Source: a virus. From it: a stretch of 56,075 nt of DNA. Shown here in pieces: positions 30,866 to 51,305 of the stretch (its first letter is position 1; every line of letters starts with the position of its first letter). The notes beneath the pieces were generated by a model. That model searched no databases and was not told where the DNA came from. It worked only from the letters and a program-made list of their open reading frames with translations. The position numbers and the translations under genes are program-made. The stretch lies in the IMG/VR virus record IMGVR_UViG_3300035118_000209, positions 1 through 56,075 of that record, one strand, 5' to 3'.

Positions 30866-31037
30866 GGGCTCAGGCTCATTTGATCTGAGCCCACTCACCC
30901 ACATTCACGAGTTCGTAGACCCAAGCATGCGGGCTCATAGCTCACACCCTATAGGTGTGTGTGAGCTCGTGAGCCCTCGCTTGTGCGACGTGAGCTCAAA
31001 ACTCACTTATGAGCCATTTTGAGCTTTTGAGCCCAAA
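30866..31037. repeat. GAGC-repeat cluster with large dyads, possible origin
   Basis: About 170 non-coding bases after the primase gene hold at least ten copies of TGAGC(C/T) or its complement. GGGCTCAG and CTGAGCCC (30866-30873, 30885-30892) form a hairpin. GGGCTCA/TGAGCCC (30931-30937, 30970-30976) enclose GCTCACAC/GTGTGAGC (30940-30947, 30959-30966). Further copies follow to 31033. Iteron-like density next to a primase suggests an origin or a repressor array. Bases 31038-31154 hold no gene. Confidence 0.5.
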
Positions 31038-31503: not shown

Positions 31504-31532
31504 AAAAACGGGCAAGCATCATGGTTTGTCAA
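31504..31532 (-). promoter_or_regulatory. Possible leftward promoter
   Basis: A perfect TTGACA (31527-31532 on the minus strand) is followed after 17-18 bases by GTTTTTA, a poor -10. The start would fall within a few bases of ATG 31493. Bases 31533-31596 hold nothing else I can support. Confidence 0.35.
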
Positions 31533-31596
31533 GAGTGTAGTTGCGAGTGGTTTGCTGGTTGCCGTTGAGTCACTGGCTTTGGTCGGTGATTCACGG

Positions 31597-31631
31597 CAGC
31601 CAAACACTGGCTGTCGCCGGGATTGTCCCGG
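31597..31631 (+). promoter_or_regulatory. Two tandem hairpins before an early gene
   Basis: CAGCCA/TGGCTG (31597-31602, 31608-31613) and CCGGGA/TCCCGG (31617-31622, 31626-31631) stand directly before the A-rich leader and the start of the 181-aa gene. Their role may be RNA stability or processing. Confidence 0.45.
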
Positions 31632-31652
31632 TGAAAGAAAACGACAGACAAA

Positions 31653-32198
31653 ATGCAAAACACAAATAAAAGCAATGGCAACGGACAGATTCAATTGTTC
31701 GTTGGGTTCAACGTTGGTAACGAGATGGTCAAGGCACTGGACGTTAAGAACGTCAATCTGCCGAAGACTGCGCTCGTGGATGACAAGGGCCAGCCGAGAC
31801 TGAACAAAAAGGGCAAGGCGATGTTCAAGGCCGCGCAGAATTACACGCAAGTTGCAATTCTGCCGTCCGTGGCCAAAGAGGGTTCGGAGAGTCTGGCGAC
31901 TCGCACGAATCTGGTGGGACAAAACCTGCTGGCGTTCGAGCGGGACGCGCAGCGCGAAGTCTCGTTGGGGTTCTTGGCCGCGATCACGGAGTTGATTAGT
32001 TCGGGCAAGTACGACCTGAGTCGCGCCCGGCTGAACAACAAGAGCGGTGCGTTGTCGAGCACGTTGAAACCCAAAAAGGAACATCTGGTCCCGGTTATCA
32101 CGCTGCAAGAAGCGCTGAAGTTTGTGGCCGACAGTTACGGCATCAGCGTTGAAAAACTGGCGTCGATGAAACCGGCCACGGTGACTCCGAAGAGCTAA
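31653..32198 (+). CDS. Unknown early protein (181 aa)
   Basis: The product has a beta-rich N-terminal region (QIQLFVGFNVGNEMVKALDV) and a helical C-terminal region (ITLQEALKFVADSYGISVEKLASM). GAAAACGACAGAC, a variant of the conserved leader, precedes the ATG. It is the first gene after the repeat array. A replication role is possible; no family is recognised. Confidence 0.7.
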   Translation: MQNTNKSNGNGQIQLFVGFNVGNEMVKALDVKNVNLPKTALVDDKGQPRLNKKGKAMFKAAQNYTQVAILPSVAKEGSESLATRTNLVGQNLLAFERDAQREVSLGFLAAITELISSGKYDLSRARLNNKSGALSSTLKPKKEHLVPVITLQEALKFVADSYGISVEKLASMKPATVTPKS

Positions 32199-40256: not shown

Positions 40257-40323
40257 GCGGCCGGGAGAGTGCGGACACCATTCCCCGCACACGGCTCTGT
40301 CACCCGTCAAAACTCCCGGCCGC
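40257..40323 (+). promoter_or_regulatory. Nested hairpin before recT
   Basis: GCGGCCGGGAG and CTCCCGGCCGC (40257-40267, 40313-40323) form an 11-bp perfect outer stem. GTGCGG/CCGCAC (40269-40274, 40285-40290) forms an inner one. No T-run follows on the plus strand; on the minus strand TTTTT follows seven bases after the stem. It could control recT translation or end antisense transcripts. Confidence 0.6.
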
Positions 40324-40348: not shown

Positions 40349-41371
40349 ATGAACGGAAATCCCAACACCGCTCTGGTCCAGCAGAAGAGGACTGTGTCCG
40401 AACTGCTGAACTCGGAGCGCGCACGCACCGAACTGGCCAAGGTCGTGCCCAAGCATCTCACGCCAGAACGAATGACACGGGTCGCGATGACCGCGTGTCT
40501 GAAGTCGCCCGGTCTCTTCAACTGCACGCCGGAGAGTCTGCTGCAGGCAGTCATGCTGTGCGCGCAGGCCGGGCTCGAACCCGACGGTCGCCTTGCTCAC
40601 CTGATCCCCTTCGGGAACTCGGTGCAGGTCATATTCGATTGGAAAGGCATCGTGACTCTCGGGCTCCGCAACGGCGGACTGGATCAGGTCTACGGCGACA
40701 AAGTCTGCGAGCATGACGAGTTCAATGCGTCGGTCGAAGACGGCGTGAAGAAAATCCACCACAAGATCAACTGGCTCAAGCCTCGGGGAAACCCCTATGC
40801 CTACTACGCCGTCACCAGCAAGAAGGGACAAATCGATTGGGAAGTGATGACGCTGGAGGAAGTCGAAGCGATCCACCAGCGCAGCAAAGCCAAGGACTCG
40901 GGCCCGTGGAAGACCGACTACGACGAGATGGCCAAAAAGACGGTGATCAAACGCATGTCCAAACGGTGGGATCTTCTGCCGGAGATCGGCGAGCTGATCA
41001 ATCAGGAAGACGACACGCCGGCTTTCGGTATGCCGGTCGTTTCATCGCCAGTGTTCAGCACGCCAGCCAAGGCAGCTCTTACCAGCGCGCCGGAAAACGA
41101 GGAGCCCGGTGATTCGCCGGCAACTAGCGAACCGGCGACACCGGCTCCGGCGCCGGCCGCTGAAGTCAGCCCGGTGAAACGGCTGCGCGAGCTGTGCAAG
41201 GAAGCCAAGCTGAAGGAAGCGCAGGTGATCGAGTTCCTGACGGGCATCGGCTCGCTGGAGCCGGGCGTGACGACGTTCGAGCAGGCGTTCCTGCAGAACG
41301 CTTCGTCGGTGAAAATGGTGGTCGACCAGTTCGAAGACATCTCTCTGCGGATCAAACTGCCGCCGGGATAA
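40349..41371 (+). CDS. recT: RecT-family single-strand annealing protein
   Basis: The 340-aa product carries the RecT core (about residues 20-215): LTPERMTRVAMTACLKSPGLFNCTPESLLQAVMLCAQAGLEPDG, NSVQVIFDWKGIVTLGLRNG and WKTDYDEMAKKTVIKRMSK. An acidic proline/alanine linker and a helical C-terminal domain follow. It anneals complementary strands in recombination and replication restart. The partner nuclease is coded 800 bases downstream. Confidence 0.92.
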   Translation: MNGNPNTALVQQKRTVSELLNSERARTELAKVVPKHLTPERMTRVAMTACLKSPGLFNCTPESLLQAVMLCAQAGLEPDGRLAHLIPFGNSVQVIFDWKGIVTLGLRNGGLDQVYGDKVCEHDEFNASVEDGVKKIHHKINWLKPRGNPYAYYAVTSKKGQIDWEVMTLEEVEAIHQRSKAKDSGPWKTDYDEMAKKTVIKRMSKRWDLLPEIGELINQEDDTPAFGMPVVSSPVFSTPAKAALTSAPENEEPGDSPATSEPATPAPAPAAEVSPVKRLRELCKEAKLKEAQVIEFLTGIGSLEPGVTTFEQAFLQNASSVKMVVDQFEDISLRIKLPPG

Positions 41372-41381
41372 AAACCAATTA

Positions 41382-41499
41382 CAACTCTCCCGTGGCGACG
41401 TGGCCGGAGTGGCTTCATAAACACTCAGCGGTCTGGAAATCGCCTTGGCAGTATGCGCAAACATCCCGTACTGGTCGCCTCTGCTGCGCGGGGGAGTTG
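41382..41499 (+). ncRNA. Cloverleaf-like structured RNA
   Basis: An 11-bp outer stem (CAACTCTCCCG 41382-41392; CGGGGGAGTTG 41489-41499, one G-U pair) encloses a four-way junction. The closing stem is GGCGAC/GTCGCC (41394-41399, 41474-41479). The arms are GAGTG/CACTC (41407-41411, 41422-41426), GCGGT/ATCGC (41428-41432, 41439-41443) and CAGTA/TACTG (41449-41453, 41469-41473). GTGGCCGGAGTGGC and CTGGAAA resemble parts of tRNA-Ser, but there is no T-loop sequence. It ends 29 bases before the next gene's ATG. Confidence 0.55.
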
Positions 41500-41528
41500 T
41501 GAGCAACCAACAAAAAGAAAGGACAGTT

Positions 41529-42152
41529 ATGAGTCATGCAACAGTGCTCGTCGCAGTGAACTGCGCGCGAGCGGACATCGAAGCAGAAGTTGAAAAACAA
41601 ATGCAGCCGTTCGACGAGAACGGAGGCTGGCTGGCCGACGGAACTCGGTGGGATTGGTGGGTCATAGGTGGCCGCTGGGACGGATACATGGGAAAGGGAA
41701 ACATCCTTCAGGTGAAGGCGATTCATCCGAACAAATTCAAGTCGAAGCGGCAGAAGGATGCCGAGGAGTCTTGGGATAACTTCTCTAACGACAAAAAGGA
41801 CAAAGGAGAAATCGTCGCAGTGCTTTGGAACTGCGATCCGAACATCACAAAGGAGAAATTCATCTCCGACCGAACTCAGGGCTGGTTCCCGTCTCACTAC
41901 GCATTCCTCTACGATCGCAAGTGGCACGAGCGGGAACGTATGGGCTTCTTCGGCATGAGCGCCAAGACGGAGTGTGAGATCGCCGGTAAAGAAAACGTTC
42001 ACCGCTGCAAGGCGAAATCACAAACCGATCCGGACGCTTACATCGTCACGTGGGGTGAAGATCGCCCCACATGGGAGTGCAAGTTCTACGACCGATTCAT
42101 CAAACCATTGTCACCCGAAACCTTCCTCGTCACTGTGGACTACCACGTTTGA
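41529..42152 (+). CDS. IGGRW-type early phage protein
   Basis: The 207-aa product contains DENGGWLADGTRWDWWVIGGRWDGY, a motif found in unrelated phages (WDWW-x-IGGRW) without a known role. FKPL-type strands near the end read FIKPLSPETFLVTVD. Start set by AAAGGACAG two bases before ATG, directly after the structured RNA. Confidence 0.7.
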   Translation: MSHATVLVAVNCARADIEAEVEKQMQPFDENGGWLADGTRWDWWVIGGRWDGYMGKGNILQVKAIHPNKFKSKRQKDAEESWDNFSNDKKDKGEIVAVLWNCDPNITKEKFISDRTQGWFPSHYAFLYDRKWHERERMGFFGMSAKTECEIAGKENVHRCKAKSQTDPDAYIVTWGEDRPTWECKFYDRFIKPLSPETFLVTVDYHV

Positions 42153-42155
42153 AAT

Positions 42156-43646: not shown

Positions 43647-43792
43647 AGCAACATCACCTTGCCGCCGTCATCGGAATCGTTGTGCTCGCCATCGCCAGCG
43701 TCACGAAAGATCAACAGCTCGTGGGCTGGTGGATGGTGGGCGGTCTGCTCTTCCTTGCACTGGCCTTCGTCCTCAAGATCACTTCCCGGTGA
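43643..43792 (+). CDS. 49-aa two-helix membrane protein
   Basis: Two membrane helices (about residues 6-19 and 28-45) are separated by a short TKDQQ loop. It is the last rightward gene; its last 14 bases overlap the end of the giant convergent gene. The shape fits a small holin or antiholin, though it lies with early genes. Confidence 0.5.
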   Translation: MKQHHLAAVIGIVVLAIASVTKDQQLVGWWMVGGLLFLALAFVLKITSR

Positions 43793-46700
43793 TCTCGCCG
43801 GAGTGCATCACGTACCAGTCGATGTATTTGTTGAGCAGGTCTTGCCGCTCGACGTTTGCGTTGTTGAACAGTTCGAAGTCCTGATCGTTCAGGCTGTCCA
43901 AGAACATCGCCTCGTTCTCCCAGCTTCCGGTCATCGGCCGCTGTGCCCACGTCGCCATGGCCTGAGCGATCGGGTCTTTGATCACGTTGCCCTTGCTGTC
44001 CAACTTCAGAGGGTGAGTCTTGCGCAACTCGGTGAACACCCGCCGGGCTTCCTTCACGTCGTCGTTGCGCAGCGCGCTACGGAGCGCGGCGTAGGACGGA
44101 GCATCCGTAGGCTGCAAAAAGAAGCCGGCGTCTGGTCTCAGATTGTTCTTCTCCACGAAGTCATTGGCCAGCCTCAGCGTCTGAGTCAGCGGCGTCTCGG
44201 CCGGCTGCACCTTCATTCCCGCCCAGCCCAGCATCTGCCGCTGAACCGCTCCGCGTCGCGGCGGTGAGATGCTTTCCGGTGCGATCGCGTGACCGATCGC
44301 TTTGGCCGGCGCACCGAAGGACAGAGGCAACGGCGCCAGTTGTCCGGCGGCTTCCTTCCACACGTCAGTAGTCTTCGTGATCCGCCTTCCAAATTCATCT
44401 TCACCGCTGGCGATCACCTTCGCGGCCTTGCCCACTGGGCCAAGCGCATTGGCTCCGATCTGGAGCATGACATCGTGCGCTCGTGGACGGCTGCCCATAA
44501 GCCGGTTTACGTCGTGCGTCATCTCCATGAACACGGACATCGGCGAGAGCCAGAAACCGTTTCCTTTTCCGGTCGGGATGAACGCGTCGAACTTGTGATC
44601 CCTCTCGTTGTTCTGCCACGTGAATTGCTTGCGGCTGATCAGGTTCAACACCTGAGTCAGTACGAAGTAACCGGCCAGACCGCGCAGCATGGAGCGAGTG
44701 ACCGGAGTGCTCACGTGGTACTGCGCGGCACGCAGATCGCCTTTGGCCAGACTGCCCGCCGCTTTGGCCAGCCGGGTGTAGGTCTCTACTTCCTTCATGA
44801 TGATGCCCTCCCGCCACATTGGGGCCAGCATCACGATCTGGGCCATGTCCCTGAAGGTCGGGTTGCGGAAGATCCCCTGCCGTCCCATGTTTCCGAATTC
44901 GATGTTCATGCCTCGAACCACATCGCGAAGAAGATCGGGAAGTCGTCGACCCGGGAATTGATCGTGCAACCGTTCGAAGTTCTCCACTCCTTTCTGAAGC
45001 ATCAGGCCGCTGGTGTATTTGTCGAAGAGCCAGCGGTTGTAAGGACCGATGACTTTGTGCCACGGCTCTCCAACGAGCGGGATATTCCGGATCGCATCCT
45101 TGTAAAGCGCATCGATCACGCGGCTGGCATTGAGTCCATTACCGAGAAGTCCGCGTCCTACTTCATGACGGGTTGCGTACTTGAAAGTCCCGTCCCGATC
45201 AATAAGTTGGATTGTTCCTTTCGCCCAGTCCGCTGCCTCCTGCGTGATGAACCCTTTCTCCACGGCTTCAGGCATGTCTTCCAGTCTCCAGTTCAATACT
45301 GCGAACCCGCCCTTGAAGTTGGGATTGATTTCCCACCAGCGTTTGCCGGACAACGTCGCGCCGTATTGCGCCAGCCGGCTGAAGTGGAACATATCCCCGA
45401 TCAGGAGCCAGCCGTGCTTGAGCATCGAAGCGCCTAACAAAGCCTGCCGCCCGCCGGGCATGTCCGCGATCTGGGACGTGCGGGACAGGGAACGAATCAT
45501 CTTCACGTAGGGCTCGCTCACCGACAACGGGACACCGCGTTTGTTTTCCGTCGGCCAGATCAGGTGCGGGTAATCCAGACTCGCCGGGACGTATTCCATG
45601 TGCACCCGACCGGTCTGCGGGTCTTCTTTGGGAATCGACTTGGGCGCCACGGCGATCGGCTTGCCAGTCTCCGGGTCGCGCAAATCCTTCCACATTTCCC
45701 GGGCCTGTGCCGCTGCCACTTTGTAGCGGCCGGAGCGGACGCGCGATTCCATCAGCACGGCCGGGTCGTAGCTGCCCGGGATGAACGGTCCATGGGCGAT
45801 AGCCTCGTACATGTCCCGGAACCGTTTGCCGCCGCGATACTGTTCGCCCAAGAGCTTTCTGGTACCGCCGAAGGGAGCGAAGGCCACCTGCTGGTCGCTC
45901 CAGAATTCTCCCTCGTACCGGCCGGGCAGATAGTAGGCGCGTTCCTTCACGTCGAAACCGTTGGCGTTCTCGAAATCAATCTCGTCCTTGCCCTCTTTCA
46001 AAATCTGCGCGGCCGTCCGCTGCAGTTCCGGGTCATCCCAATGGTCTCGGGCGTAATCGATCTCTTTCTCCAGCCGGTCTGCCGCCTTGGAAATCTTTCC
46101 GGACCACAGCCGCTTCACGGGGTCTCGGCTGATGCCCCACAGTTCGGCTTTTGTCCGGGCCGACGCGATGTCTTTGCGCAGAAACTCCAGACCCTTCGGG
46201 GTGAACCCGGAAAGCGGTGGCGTTTTCTCGTACTTCATCGCGCGATTCGTGGACGCGATCACCGCTTTGGCAGCGGCGCGAACCATCTGCGCCTGCTTTG
46301 TGTCGGCACGGCTGGCACTCTTGGCCGATACCATTCGAATCAACTGGCCCACCTGACGGGCATACTGGTCGGCAACTCGCTCCTGTCCGTCGAGAATGCG
46401 AGGCAGATCGCGTTTCACAACTCGCCGGGCGCCGATCGCGCGCAGTGATTTGAAGAGCTGGATCGTCTCGTCGTTGGTCACCTGCTTGGCGCGACGAAGC
46501 GAGGACGGATCACGTTCGCGAAGTGCGGACACGCCGTAGCGCAGACTGCTTTCCAAAGTGTATTTTTTCTTGGGAACTTCACGATGCGCCAGCGTGCGCA
46601 GTGCGGCTTCGCCCATGTATGGGTTTTCGCCTTGAGCCAACTCGGCAGATAATGCCTGCTGCGCTTCCGGACTCAGCATCTCCGGCTCATGCGGCACAGC

Positions 46701-49700
46701 CGGCGGCGGCGGTTCCGCTGGGGTTCCACGTGGAGCGCCGGCAACTTCGGTCGGCGCGCGTCCACGGAGCGTGCTGATCTCACGCGCAGTCGGGCTCACA
46801 AATTCAGCCGGAGGCGGCGGAAGCATCGATTCTTTCGGGCGAATGGTTGTCGCTGATCCCAGACCTGCTTGTTCCCGGGTGATGCCGGCCATCGGTCCGG
46901 TAAAGGAGGAGGTTCGAATGCCGGGCGTCCCCTCAATGCCGACATCTCCGAACCACTTCTCGAAATCATTCACGCTGTCGAACTTCTGGTGGAACTTCTG
47001 CACCGGATCCCGCAGCGTCATCACGACCATCGGCGACCATGACTTCAGCAGCTTGTCAGTGATCTTCTCGCTGGGCAGAGAAGCCCCGTCCGGGTTGGTG
47101 ATCTTCGGACCTGTTCGTGGGTCTCTCCATGTGGAGACCAGCGTCACCTTGCCGTCGCGGTCGAGCAGGGCCATCACGTTCTTGCTGACGGTGCGCGGCG
47201 GCGCGGCCTTGCCGGTGGCATCGACAGCCGCGTTGGCGGTGGCCAACTCTCCGACTCGCTTGGCGTCGCCGGCTTCTTCGGCCGGGATACGAGTGATCAG
47301 ACGGCGCGATTCGATCGTCGGAAACTGGCCAGCCATTTCGCCGGCCTGAACCTTTTCCGCTTCGGTTCTCGGCAGCGCGCCTTGCACGTCGTAGGTCTGG
47401 CCGATGTCTTCGGGTCCGATCTCTTTCCGGTCCCACGGTTTCTCCGGAGCATCGCCGGCCTTCTGCGTCAGCTTGTCCATGATCGCTCCGATGGCGGCGT
47501 AGCGCCGTTGAAACGGGACGTTAAATTTCTGAGCGATCTGCGGACCGTACTTTCGCTTGAATTCTTCCTGCGTCATCCACGGCTTTTTGCTGAACATCTT
47601 CCGGACGTACTCGATCTGACTGGCCATTTGCTCTTCGTTCATCACGTCGGGAATCTTGCCGATGTAGGGATCACGCTCGCTGGGTTGCAGCGCTTCGGCC
47701 ACGTCGCGTTTGACTCCCACTTCCGGCAACATGCGGGCCAGCTCGTCGCCGGTGGCCTGCATCAGATGCTTCGTCAGCGAGTCCTGCCACGCGTAGTAAA
47801 TCGAATCACGGGTCACCTGACTGCCGAACTGCGCGCGCAGCGTGTTGGAGAACTCCTCGAAGGATGGCAGCTTGCCCGACGCCTTCACGTTGCTGAAGAA
47901 CTGGTCGGTCATCTTGTCGATCTCGCCCGCAGCCGGCTGGCGGAATCCGCCGCGCTCAACTTCAGCCGTGCCTTTGACCGGCGGCAGCAAAAGTTCGGGG
48001 TGTTCCTTCGGCGCCTTCGGACGCCGGAGGGACATCGGCAGTTCCATCTGCGAAGGATCGTAAAGAGTCTCTCCACGTCCGCTATGTCCGGGGTCTCTTT
48101 TGACCGCCATCCCCTGTTCGATGCCCCAATCGATAGCGGACTGACGGACCTTCGGTGAGATGTCTCCTCGACTGCTTATCCAAAGAGTGTTTGCTTTACG
48201 ATCGGCCACTGCTCGAACCCATCCTCGTGTGAACATTTCTCGGTACAGGTCGGTGTCTTCCATTACTTCCGCTTCATCCTCTGGAATGACGTCCTTCAAT
48301 TTGTTGTATGCGAATTCCTTGTGGCCCTCCGGAGCCTCGTGAAGTTCTCCAGAGGAGTTGAACCACTTTTCGAGAGTCCCCTTTGGACCGTACCCTTCAG
48401 TTGGTTTCCATTCTTTTTGACCGGCAGTCTTCGGACGTCGGAGGGAGGACGGTCCTTCAGCCTGTTCGGCAGCTTTGCGTTTAGCAGCTTCCAACTTAGC
48501 CTGCATTCCGTAATAATTCCTTGCAGCCGGAACATCCTGTGAGAGTTTTAGAATTACAGCAAAAGGATTTCTATCAGCAGTGACAACCCAACCACGCGCC
48601 GCTAAATCTTGACGTTGTTTGGGTGTCAATGTTTTCCAAATCGGAGCTATGTCTTTTCCGTAAAGTGGATCATTCTTTTCCCTTAATTCTCCCAGCACTT
48701 TATCCAACATAGAGGCTGGTTCAACCCAACCCGGCCTCTGCATAAGAGTTTCGGCATCGAACCTCGCGGCAAAACGTGGTACAACGGTTGCCTGCTCTTC
48801 CTCAGACAATGCTTTCGGTCTTCTCAGTGAACTCGGTCGCGGCGTCTCCAGCCGCTGCGCCAGACTCTCGGTCGCTGTGAGCTCCCGGCCGCTCGTGCGC
48901 TCCAGAGCCTTCACAGATTCAACTGTGTGTTTGAGTGGAGCGCCAGCGCGTTTAGGTACCATTCCTTCCGCAGAACCTTCATCGAACGCAGCCTCGATAA
49001 TTTCACGAGGGAATTGCACGATTGTTCCGAGACCGAATTCCGGACTCATGAGCAGAGCCATTTTCTTTTGTGGATCAGTCTCCGTCTGGAGTTGGTCACG
49101 AACTTTCTGTCCGTCTTCGATGATCTTACGCCGCGTGTACTCCAACGCCGCGATCACGGGCTTGGCTTTCTCTTCTCCAAGCTGGCGCAGGAATAGTCCG
49201 GCCTGATACGCGGACTCCTGCTGGTAGACGTCTCCCTTCAGGAAGCGCTTCATCACACTCATCCAGTAATCCGGAGAGTTCACCGCGTCGCCGGCATCGT
49301 GAAAATACTTCGGTCCGAGCGCTGGCTTGCTGACGCCCTTGGAAACGAACTTGTCAGTGGCGTACTGCTCCTGCTTCGGGTCTTCAGATTCTTGCGGTCT
49401 CCGCAGCGACGAAGGGTTCCCTCCAGCCGCAACGAACCGGGCGGCGTCGAGATTGCCTTGCACTTTCTCCAGCAGAGACCGTCGCACATTCCCGCGCTCA
49501 GTCGGCAAGGTCTCCATGATCCGGGAAACGATCCGTTGAAGCGTGTTGAGCTGTTCCATCTTCCAACGTTCCCGGCCAACGGTCATCACTGTTTCGGTGG
49601 GAGACATCTTCCGCAACTGGGCCAGCCTACGCGCGATCGATTCGTAACCCAGCATCCGGTCCGTGAATGGCCTTCCGTGAGCGGCCTGTGCCCCGGCTCG

Positions 49701-51305
49701 CGTCCACTTGCCGGTGTAGACTCGGGTCTCCATAACCTTCTCGACTCCACTCATGGCTGCGGCGTATTCATCCGCGTCCTTGTCGGTCGTCTCCAGATGG
49801 TCCCGCTCTTGGGCGATGAGACTCTTCACGTATGTCGAACGCTCCTCGGGCGGAAGATCGGCCAGTGACTTACTGAACTCTTCGGGGTTGATGACGACCT
49901 TGCCGGTCTTCCGGTTGATCGTCGCCGCTTCGTTCGGAGCGAACGGTTGTCCCTCTTCCAGATGCTCCGAACCGACTTCGATGCCGGCTCCCATTCCCTT
50001 GCGCTCTTCGTCGAGATAATCCTGATCGTCGGCAGTCAGTCCGCCTTTCGATCGCTCAAGTCTCATTCCGGGTTCGAGGTGGAATTCGCTTCCGGCAACA
50101 GTATTCTGGCCCTCGTGGTCAACGAACAAAGTGCCGTCCTTGGAAACCTGACGGACGACTCTACGCACTCCATCTTCATCCACCAATACATCTCCCGGTT
50201 TCAGAGATTGAGCGACAGTCTTTAGAGCCTTAGCTCTTTCGGAGAATGCCTGATCTCGTTCTTCCCCGACCTTGGTGCGTGAAACCAGAGATTCAGTGGT
50301 TTCGAAAGCCTGTTGCTCTCCGGGCCTCAGTGGTACCGGTGCTTCTTTGACGGGCACTTGCCCTTCGCCGCCCCCGGGTTCCGCAGGAACGGTCGGAGGG
50401 GCAATGCTCTCTGCCATGTCCTTGCGTATCTGCTCGGCCTGAGAGAGTGGTTCTCCTCGGCGTACTTTGGCCTGAACACGCTCTAATGGTATTTGTGCTG
50501 CTTCGGCCATTTGTTCGGGCGATGCGAGAACTCTCGCGCCACCTTCTTTGACGGGCACTTGCCCTTCGCCGCCCCCGGGTTGTGCGCGCACATCGCCATG
50601 AACCGCTGCTGTTTCTTCGACACTGCGGGCATAGGGAACTCCTTCCTTTGTTAGTGCGCCTTTACCCATCAAGCCAAGCATCGTGGCGCTCTGTAATGCT
50701 GGCTCAATATCTTCACGGTTTCCAGTCTGCACTGCTTTTTCAATTTGACCGGGAAGCGCTTCGGCCATAGAGCCCGCGTATAAGATTTGGATGGGCTTGG
50801 CTAATTTGGTTGCAGTCAAAGGAAGAGTAGCGATTTGTCCCGGCGTGCTCATTCCCTCGATAATTTTTCCCATCGACGATCCCGCTTTGATTGCATTCTC
50901 CGGAGTAAGTTGAATAATCGGCTTGCCCGGTGCAAACGGGTAGTCGGCTTCGGTCAATTCGAGAGGCGGCGTCGGGTGCTCGGTCGACGTGTCGATCACA
51001 AACTTCTTGGGCACCAGACTGGGAATGTTGAGCGCTTTTCCAGCTTGCCGTTTGATGAAAGACGGAGCGTTGAGTCCGAGAGCAGCGGCCTCTTCCACCA
51101 ATCCCATCGTATAACCGAACGGTCCCAGCCCTTCAGGAAGAGCGGATTCTTTTTGCGCGGCTTCGGGACTTACTTCACTGGCGAGAAGCGTCTGCTCCAG
51201 AGCCGGAGACAGTCGGGTTCTGGGAGGCGGTGATTGCGCCGTGTCGAACTGGTCGTAAGGATTTTTCTCCTCGACATCGAACTGGTCGTAAACATTCTGC
51301 GGCAT
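43779..51305 (-). CDS. Giant internal-virion-type protein (2508 aa)
   Basis: This gene takes 13% of the genome. The N-terminus repeats YDQFD twice. Low-complexity linkers separate globular parts, and the motif SLRRP or SLRRA recurs at residues about 632, 825, 953, 1091 and 1601. The last 900 residues are mostly helical, with membrane-prone segments (SMLRGLAGYFVLTQVLNLI), like the DNA-ejection proteins and polyvalent proteins of podoviruses. It probably rides in the capsid and enters the host with the DNA. No lysozyme or polymerase motif is visible. ATG 51305 lies one base past the previous stop. Confidence 0.75.
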   Translation of the reverse strand: MPQNVYDQFDVEEKNPYDQFDTAQSPPPRTRLSPALEQTLLASEVSPEAAQKESALPEGLGPFGYTMGLVEEAAALGLNAPSFIKRQAGKALNIPSLVPKKFVIDTSTEHPTPPLELTEADYPFAPGKPIIQLTPENAIKAGSSMGKIIEGMSTPGQIATLPLTATKLAKPIQILYAGSMAEALPGQIEKAVQTGNREDIEPALQSATMLGLMGKGALTKEGVPYARSVEETAAVHGDVRAQPGGGEGQVPVKEGGARVLASPEQMAEAAQIPLERVQAKVRRGEPLSQAEQIRKDMAESIAPPTVPAEPGGGEGQVPVKEAPVPLRPGEQQAFETTESLVSRTKVGEERDQAFSERAKALKTVAQSLKPGDVLVDEDGVRRVVRQVSKDGTLFVDHEGQNTVAGSEFHLEPGMRLERSKGGLTADDQDYLDEERKGMGAGIEVGSEHLEEGQPFAPNEAATINRKTGKVVINPEEFSKSLADLPPEERSTYVKSLIAQERDHLETTDKDADEYAAAMSGVEKVMETRVYTGKWTRAGAQAAHGRPFTDRMLGYESIARRLAQLRKMSPTETVMTVGRERWKMEQLNTLQRIVSRIMETLPTERGNVRRSLLEKVQGNLDAARFVAAGGNPSSLRRPQESEDPKQEQYATDKFVSKGVSKPALGPKYFHDAGDAVNSPDYWMSVMKRFLKGDVYQQESAYQAGLFLRQLGEEKAKPVIAALEYTRRKIIEDGQKVRDQLQTETDPQKKMALLMSPEFGLGTIVQFPREIIEAAFDEGSAEGMVPKRAGAPLKHTVESVKALERTSGRELTATESLAQRLETPRPSSLRRPKALSEEEQATVVPRFAARFDAETLMQRPGWVEPASMLDKVLGELREKNDPLYGKDIAPIWKTLTPKQRQDLAARGWVVTADRNPFAVILKLSQDVPAARNYYGMQAKLEAAKRKAAEQAEGPSSLRRPKTAGQKEWKPTEGYGPKGTLEKWFNSSGELHEAPEGHKEFAYNKLKDVIPEDEAEVMEDTDLYREMFTRGWVRAVADRKANTLWISSRGDISPKVRQSAIDWGIEQGMAVKRDPGHSGRGETLYDPSQMELPMSLRRPKAPKEHPELLLPPVKGTAEVERGGFRQPAAGEIDKMTDQFFSNVKASGKLPSFEEFSNTLRAQFGSQVTRDSIYYAWQDSLTKHLMQATGDELARMLPEVGVKRDVAEALQPSERDPYIGKIPDVMNEEQMASQIEYVRKMFSKKPWMTQEEFKRKYGPQIAQKFNVPFQRRYAAIGAIMDKLTQKAGDAPEKPWDRKEIGPEDIGQTYDVQGALPRTEAEKVQAGEMAGQFPTIESRRLITRIPAEEAGDAKRVGELATANAAVDATGKAAPPRTVSKNVMALLDRDGKVTLVSTWRDPRTGPKITNPDGASLPSEKITDKLLKSWSPMVVMTLRDPVQKFHQKFDSVNDFEKWFGDVGIEGTPGIRTSSFTGPMAGITREQAGLGSATTIRPKESMLPPPPAEFVSPTAREISTLRGRAPTEVAGAPRGTPAEPPPPAVPHEPEMLSPEAQQALSAELAQGENPYMGEAALRTLAHREVPKKKYTLESSLRYGVSALRERDPSSLRRAKQVTNDETIQLFKSLRAIGARRVVKRDLPRILDGQERVADQYARQVGQLIRMVSAKSASRADTKQAQMVRAAAKAVIASTNRAMKYEKTPPLSGFTPKGLEFLRKDIASARTKAELWGISRDPVKRLWSGKISKAADRLEKEIDYARDHWDDPELQRTAAQILKEGKDEIDFENANGFDVKERAYYLPGRYEGEFWSDQQVAFAPFGGTRKLLGEQYRGGKRFRDMYEAIAHGPFIPGSYDPAVLMESRVRSGRYKVAAAQAREMWKDLRDPETGKPIAVAPKSIPKEDPQTGRVHMEYVPASLDYPHLIWPTENKRGVPLSVSEPYVKMIRSLSRTSQIADMPGGRQALLGASMLKHGWLLIGDMFHFSRLAQYGATLSGKRWWEINPNFKGGFAVLNWRLEDMPEAVEKGFITQEAADWAKGTIQLIDRDGTFKYATRHEVGRGLLGNGLNASRVIDALYKDAIRNIPLVGEPWHKVIGPYNRWLFDKYTSGLMLQKGVENFERLHDQFPGRRLPDLLRDVVRGMNIEFGNMGRQGIFRNPTFRDMAQIVMLAPMWREGIIMKEVETYTRLAKAAGSLAKGDLRAAQYHVSTPVTRSMLRGLAGYFVLTQVLNLISRKQFTWQNNERDHKFDAFIPTGKGNGFWLSPMSVFMEMTHDVNRLMGSRPRAHDVMLQIGANALGPVGKAAKVIASGEDEFGRRITKTTDVWKEAAGQLAPLPLSFGAPAKAIGHAIAPESISPPRRGAVQRQMLGWAGMKVQPAETPLTQTLRLANDFVEKNNLRPDAGFFLQPTDAPSYAALRSALRNDDVKEARRVFTELRKTHPLKLDSKGNVIKDPIAQAMATWAQRPMTGSWENEAMFLDSLNDQDFELFNNANVERQDLLNKYIDWYVMHSGEITGK
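50342..50380 (-). repeat. 39-bp exact repeat, copy 1
   Basis: Identical to 50543-50581, 201 bases away and in the same frame of the giant protein. It codes for GGGEGQVPVKE plus flanking residues. The perfect identity suggests a recent duplication or an active recombination point. Confidence 0.9.
50543..50581 (-). repeat. 39-bp exact repeat, copy 2
   Basis: Second copy of the sequence at 50342-50380. Between the two copies the protein has another linker region. Confidence 0.9.

Follow-up and report, generated by a model that had tools for sequence, protein, structure and literature searches.

A three-way-junction RNA family of unrelated phages, with copies in Verrucomicrobiota genomes

We found that a short non-coding stretch downstream of recT in a viral contig encodes a member of a family of structured RNAs. 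(The contig, which we call the window, is the whole 56,075-nucleotide stretch of DNA that was analysed.) Comparison of the members shows a conserved three-way junction of ~115 nt, apparently made as RNA from this strand, with a single copy per viral record searched and unrelated neighbours. Using pattern scans and covariance models, we traced this RNA to about 30 viral contigs from about 16 lineages, which have few or no flanking genes in common. We tentatively interpret it as a new, free-standing structured RNA family of phages, Verrucomicrobiota prophages, and probable chromosomal remnants, which may dock on a host component via the loop between helices P2 and P3. This reading seems quite possible to us, if somewhat short of probable.

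The element occupies 118 non-coding bases of the window (41382–41499), with the recT stop codon (41371) on one side and an ATG (41529) on the other, just as the original prediction had placed it. Its conserved fold has three parts that meet in a three-way junction: P1, which closes the structure with 11 bp; P2 and P3, which together make one arm; and P4, an arm with a CUC bulge. The genes and the parts of the structure are as follows.

40349–41371 (+): recT gene (Pfam RecT, E 3e-35); the RNA begins 10 nt past its stop codon
41382–41392 (+): P1 5' strand (CAACUCUCCCG), pairs with 41489–41499; 8/8 modelled P1 pairs are double-changed across 24 members
41395–41398 (+): P2 5' strand GCGA, pairs with 41440–41443; 3/4 pairs double-changed
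41399–41401 (+): internal-loop strand CGU between P2 and P3, invariant in 24/24 aligned members (partly ascertained by the search pattern)
41402–41411 (+): P3 5' strand GGCCG GAGUG, pairs with 41422–41426 and 41429–41433; 99.2% of cells paired
41422–41433 (+): P3 3' strand with a two-base bulge A-N at 41427–41428; the bulge A is in 24/24 members
41434–41439 (+): internal-loop strand UGGAAA, conserved (consensus URGNAA; shorter in some members)
41440–41443 (+): P2 3' strand UCGC, partner of 41395–41398
41448–41453 (+): P4a 5' strand GCAGUA, pairs with 41482–41487; 6/6 pairs double-changed, 94.2% of cells paired
41455–41457 (+): P4b 5' strand GCG, pairs with 41476–41478
41479–41481 (+): CUC bulge of P4, in type A members only; present in the window
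41482–41487 (+): P4a 3' strand UGCUGC, partner of 41448–41453
41489–41499 (+): P1 3' strand (CGGGGGAGUUG), partner of 41382–41392
41529–42152 (+): next gene, 207 aa and without a Pfam match; the related locus L015 lacks it

The window's RNA has a folding energy of -49.2 kcal/mol (z -2.7; 3/200 shuffles were equal or better). Three-way-junction pairs dominate its ensemble, with pairing probabilities of 0.94–1.0 for P1, 0.8 for P2, 0.86–0.99 for P3, and 0.6 for P4. P1 consists of 10 Watson-Crick pairs and one U-G pair. This is the further 11-bp stem that had been proposed, and covariation at all modelled P1 pairs confirms it. The window thus has everything that defines the family: P1, P2-P3, and P4, with covariation, plus the CUC bulge in P4.

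The nearest relative (L002/L015) has a RecT that is 93% identical to the window's and carries the same element. Its version folds more clearly than the window's (z -4.85, 0/200 shuffles). The gaps between the two elements have lengths not divisible by three, and there are paired changes: for example, GAGUG/CACUC in the window is GAGCG/CGCUC in the relative. The proposal of a folded, non-coding RNA holds. In L015, a gene for a PD-(D/E)XK nuclease lies directly 3' of the RNA. Across the interval between recT and the nuclease gene (41372–42155 of the window), the RNA is kept and the small genes that flank it differ: a 45-aa ORF in L015 and the 207-aa gene in the window. Among relatives of the RecT protein beyond L002, we did not find the element. 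In L003–L005, recT runs directly into the nuclease gene, and a covariance model of the family (R1, see below) had zero matches in L003 or L006–L013.

Other parts of the window also have structure. Directly 5' of recT, a perfect 11-bp inverted repeat (GCGGCCGGGAG/CTCCCGGCCGC) surrounds two hairpins (40257–40323; z -4.86, 0/200 shuffles). This structured leader has identical letters in L002, where the sequence farther upstream diverges. It is a separate structure, outside the three-way-junction family. The window's strongest fold for its GC content is a long hairpin region at 31521–31668, before an ORF at 31653 (z -6.35, 0/200 shuffles). Dense GAGCTCA / TGAGCC repeats at 30870–31035 fold strongly on both strands. 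We also noticed that one open reading frame on the minus strand (43779–51305) runs for 2508 aa, in a phage contig of 56 kb.

The element had originally been described as a four-stem cloverleaf, perhaps a decayed tRNA or a tRNA mimic. (No stems were listed, so the cloverleaf stems considered here are our reconstruction: CAGTA/TACTG, and the second TCGCC with a 5' GGCGA.) The resemblance is understandable: the RNA and tRNAs or tRNA-like structures are alike in size, both have several short stems, and the window does contain short words like those of the D and anticodon arms of tRNA-Ser (GTGGCCGGAGTGGC, GGTCTGGAAATCGC). However, what these words represent is the P2/P3 core that the new family conserves. 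That core varies by paired changes that have nothing to do with tRNA (P3a in L231 is an example, below). The cloverleaf itself does not hold up. L015 lacks TACTG (the likely T-stem strand), the second TCGCC, and GGCGA, which are strands that the cloverleaf would need. When covariation is checked in relatives, the outer stem passes and the cloverleaf stems fail. The fold that covaries is a three-way junction without a T-arm, an anticodon arm, or a 3' CCA. ARAGORN found no tRNA in the window, and the Rfam tRNA model had no match at E up to 10 within 41300–41600. We consider a decayed tRNA or a tRNA mimic to be extremely improbable.

To find more members, we scanned viral contigs with a core pattern (GUGGCCGGAG...CUCANCGGUCUG) and looser forms of it. 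These scans recovered loci with unrelated flanking genes whose non-coding bases repeat one design. In an alignment of 8 members, 93.4% of cells were paired and 19/33 pairs were double-changed. The covariance model R1, which was built from this alignment, gave members scores of at least 37 bits; chance matches in about one megabase of viral loci reached at most 19.4 bits. With 21 members, 24/30 pairs were double-changed. With 24 members, 25/30 pairs were double-changed (versus 18.2 in shuffles) and 93.8% of paired cells were standard pairs. None of 500 shuffles matched the observed values for pairing and covariation, and if the structures were slid by 1–3 bases, at most 42.5% of cells were paired. 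P1 and P4 covary at every pair (8/8 and 6/6). Because neither helix was part of any pattern that led to the distant members, the search itself cannot have produced their covariation. Other searches added little. A BLAST search of phage and plasmid collections, with the element as the query, returned nothing beyond short chance matches; the loosest pattern gave almost entirely chance matches and a single new member (L198); and a pattern with a long hairpin gained none.

The alignment also indicates which nucleic acid is under selection. Among the 21 members, and leaving out the one fixed G-U pair, there were 33 G-U pairs versus 7 A-C pairs, and therefore selection acts on the molecule as RNA, read from this strand. 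This argues against an element that works as DNA, such as a replication or recombination site, a folded single strand, or a miniature mobile element with inverted ends. In several phages the element does lie among recombination and replication genes, the two strands of P1 form an inverted repeat, and the chromosomal sites (below) are unrelated to each other. But P1 differs in sequence from member to member, as terminal repeats would not, and each of the 22 viral records that we searched whole has exactly one copy. A DNA-level element is very unlikely.

Within the family, P1 is mostly 8–12 bp, has no conserved sequence, and is always the open helix. One arm has P2 (~4 bp), an internal loop (CGU / URGNAA), P3a (5 bp), the A-N bulge, and P3b, whose loop varies in length. 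The other arm has P4a (~6 bp), the CUC bulge in most members, and P4b. About 20 near-invariant positions cluster at the junction loops, while the helices vary. For instance, P2 is CCCA/UGGG in L037 and GCAA/UUGC in L053. The CUC bulge is shared by the window, L014, L015, L016, L018, L020, L021, L030, L031, L037, L053, and L231, and is UCUC in L051; it is missing from the type B members (the L104 group, L017, L019, L107, and L116). The CGU strand is also kept in four members that only a covariance model detected (L231, L232, L233, and L240). P3a at first sight is invariant, which is an artefact of patterns that enforced its sequence. L231 replaces GGCCG/CGGUC with GAAUG/CAUUU, and because that member was found by model alone, we conclude that P3a covaries too. 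We found no pseudoknot or additional covarying pairs of columns in the alignment.

We compared the RNA to known families using Rfam 15 (4227 models), with the gathering threshold or a low E-value as the criterion. The window had no match at the gathering threshold, and its best match (RF00382, 10.3 bits, E 9) is almost wholly off the fold. Apart from one true tRNA, the other members had only chance matches elsewhere in their loci. In the literature, as distinct from unpublished or supplementary lists of candidates, we found no description of this RNA. On these comparisons, we rate the three-way-junction family as new, which applies to the family itself and not to its mode of action. Of the options in the original prediction, a new structured RNA class is the one that is strongly supported, by covariation across unrelated loci and the lack of a match in Rfam.

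Several known RNAs have similarities to the family. 5S rRNA has much the same shape: it is ~118 nt long and has an outer stem and two arms, with a two-base bulge in one arm. Its loop sequences differ from this RNA's. It was included in the Rfam scan, with no match, and we do not propose it as a relative. The packaging RNA of phi29 is another phage RNA of ~120 nt with a three-way junction. By eye, our RNA lacks complementary kissing loops, and although TerL is near a few members, there is no constant link to packaging genes. Orphan structured RNA candidates (such as the 104 motifs of Weinberg et al. 2010, PMC2864571) and Rfam families such as manA and wcaG in phages are also comparable. Like this RNA, they have covarying folds that were identified by comparative genomics in phages and bacteria. 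However, manA was described as common in potential 5' UTRs, and wcaG as a probable regulator of exopolysaccharide or light-induced genes. Our RNA has no consistent downstream gene and matches 0/4227 Rfam models.

A conserved junction core with freely varying helices, scattered among phages without fixed neighbours, is also reminiscent of self-cleaving ribozymes (hammerhead, twister, pistol, and twister-sister), and such ribozymes are known to occur among phage-associated genes (PMC10085705). The family might then be a new class of self-cleaving ribozyme, as its near-invariant loops would suggest. Against this, it has no Rfam match to known ribozymes and no recognised known catalytic core. Also, P1 is always the open helix, and we saw no permutations of the helices (pattern searches could miss them). 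We view a ribozyme as improbable.

We then considered the neighbouring genes. Beyond pairs of related phages, no gene family is common to the neighbourhoods. In the window, the RNA lies between the genes for RecT and a PD-(D/E)XK nuclease, with one gene intervening, and in L021 its two neighbours encode an annealing protein of the Mgm101 type and a PD-(D/E)XK nuclease. From our reading of the neighbouring sequences, other members adjoin genes for DnaB-like helicases, terminase or portal proteins, or tail proteins. In 8 of about 16 lineages, P1 starts between -10 and +11 nt from the upstream stop codon. This spacing, along with the presence of the RNA downstream of single-strand annealing genes of two families (RecT and Mgm101-type), would fit a cis-acting element in the 3' UTR or between cistrons, which would stabilise, process, or insulate phage mRNA (as an exonuclease block or an RNase processing site). 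A caveat is that phage genomes are dense, which pushes any intergenic element beside a stop codon; gene packing alone could account for the position. Also, apart from the annealing proteins, the genes upstream show no relationship, and the chromosomal copies are located past another gene's terminator-like hairpin or opposite a neighbour. An internal loop that hardly varies is more than a simple barrier would require. We consider a cis-acting element unlikely, although it is the alternative to which we give the most weight.

Downstream, the members have no gene in common, and several have no downstream gene on the same strand. A riboswitch is unlikely because of this and because the start codon of the window's next gene is outside the fold; a consistent 5' UTR location is lacking. 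Stop-codon readthrough would also place a structure shortly after a stop codon, and in some phages the RNA is before a gene. But L015 and L020 have in-frame stops soon after (as read from the sequence), and the spacing from stop codon to structure varies. We think it highly improbable that the RNA is a readthrough element or a riboswitch.

Not all of the copies are in phages. A metagenome-assembled genome from the Verrucomicrobiales (G001) has two: one in a prophage with an integrase, and one between tRNA-Asn and argG (L030/L226 16629–18751). The second is a near copy of the prophage RNA, with its fold intact. Besides the RNA, it has the same terminator-like hairpin as the prophage site and a weak resemblance to the end of the convergent prophage gene there. 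Because these three features match, the site beside tRNA-Asn is possibly a prophage remnant that kept the RNA. Overall, there are chromosomal copies at unrelated places in five Verrucomicrobiota genomes, one of which is also the prophage host. Those in G329, G343, G313, and G356 were found by model-only searches and are intergenic, beside ordinary metabolic or transport genes. Chromosomal copies are present in 4/39 genomes of the order (including G001) and in one more among 39 genomes of the class. Since they are sporadic, the host does not need the RNA.

Wider searches of genomes yielded little. (Scans that covered more than 40 genomes used strict filters and are weak negatives.) Across 41 Bacteroidota genomes there was no credible match; the sole one, at 23.6 bits, was in G468, a genome that a pattern had picked out to begin with. 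When we ran a pattern over 85,000 species, with one genome for each, the G001 copies were the only true members among the matches. Weak model matches in genomes (~18–28 bits) were discarded, and those that we inspected (L234–L236, L243) were inside coding genes or lacked the core. The assignment of Verrucomicrobiota as hosts is based on one metagenome-assembled genome and a few other genomes.

The position of the RNA, its single copy, the lack of a conserved downstream gene, and the likely remnant beside a tRNA gene all favour a trans-acting RNA. In phages, the RNA would share a transcript with its upstream neighbour, given that in 8 of about 16 lineages the stem starts no more than ~11 nt from the stop codon. 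P1 would close it into an autonomous domain, which may be trimmed out or may work inside the mRNA. A host-cell component would dock on the invariant P2/P3 loop, and a protein or a ribonucleoprotein is the best candidate for it. (We suspect a host component because no phage gene travels with the RNA.) Holding or mimicking that component would aid infection, or would aid a cell that retains the prophage remnant. Several points tell against this trans-acting reading: a housekeeping partner might be expected to bring a wider host range, the chromosomal copies are sporadic, and the packing of the RNA against upstream stop codons in phages fits a cis element equally. As for the broader idea that this is an undescribed class of RNA that captures or replaces a host component (or cleaves itself), and that Verrucomicrobiota keep it after the prophage decays, we regard it as speculative and rather doubtful.

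That so compact an RNA, its core strictly conserved, is common to unrelated phages and has been kept next to host genes suggests a specific molecular partner. The consensus, the structure, and the ~30 loci give a handle for hunting that partner, in a phylum whose phages have hardly been studied. And phage contigs from uncultivated hosts still contain entire RNA families that are missing from Rfam.
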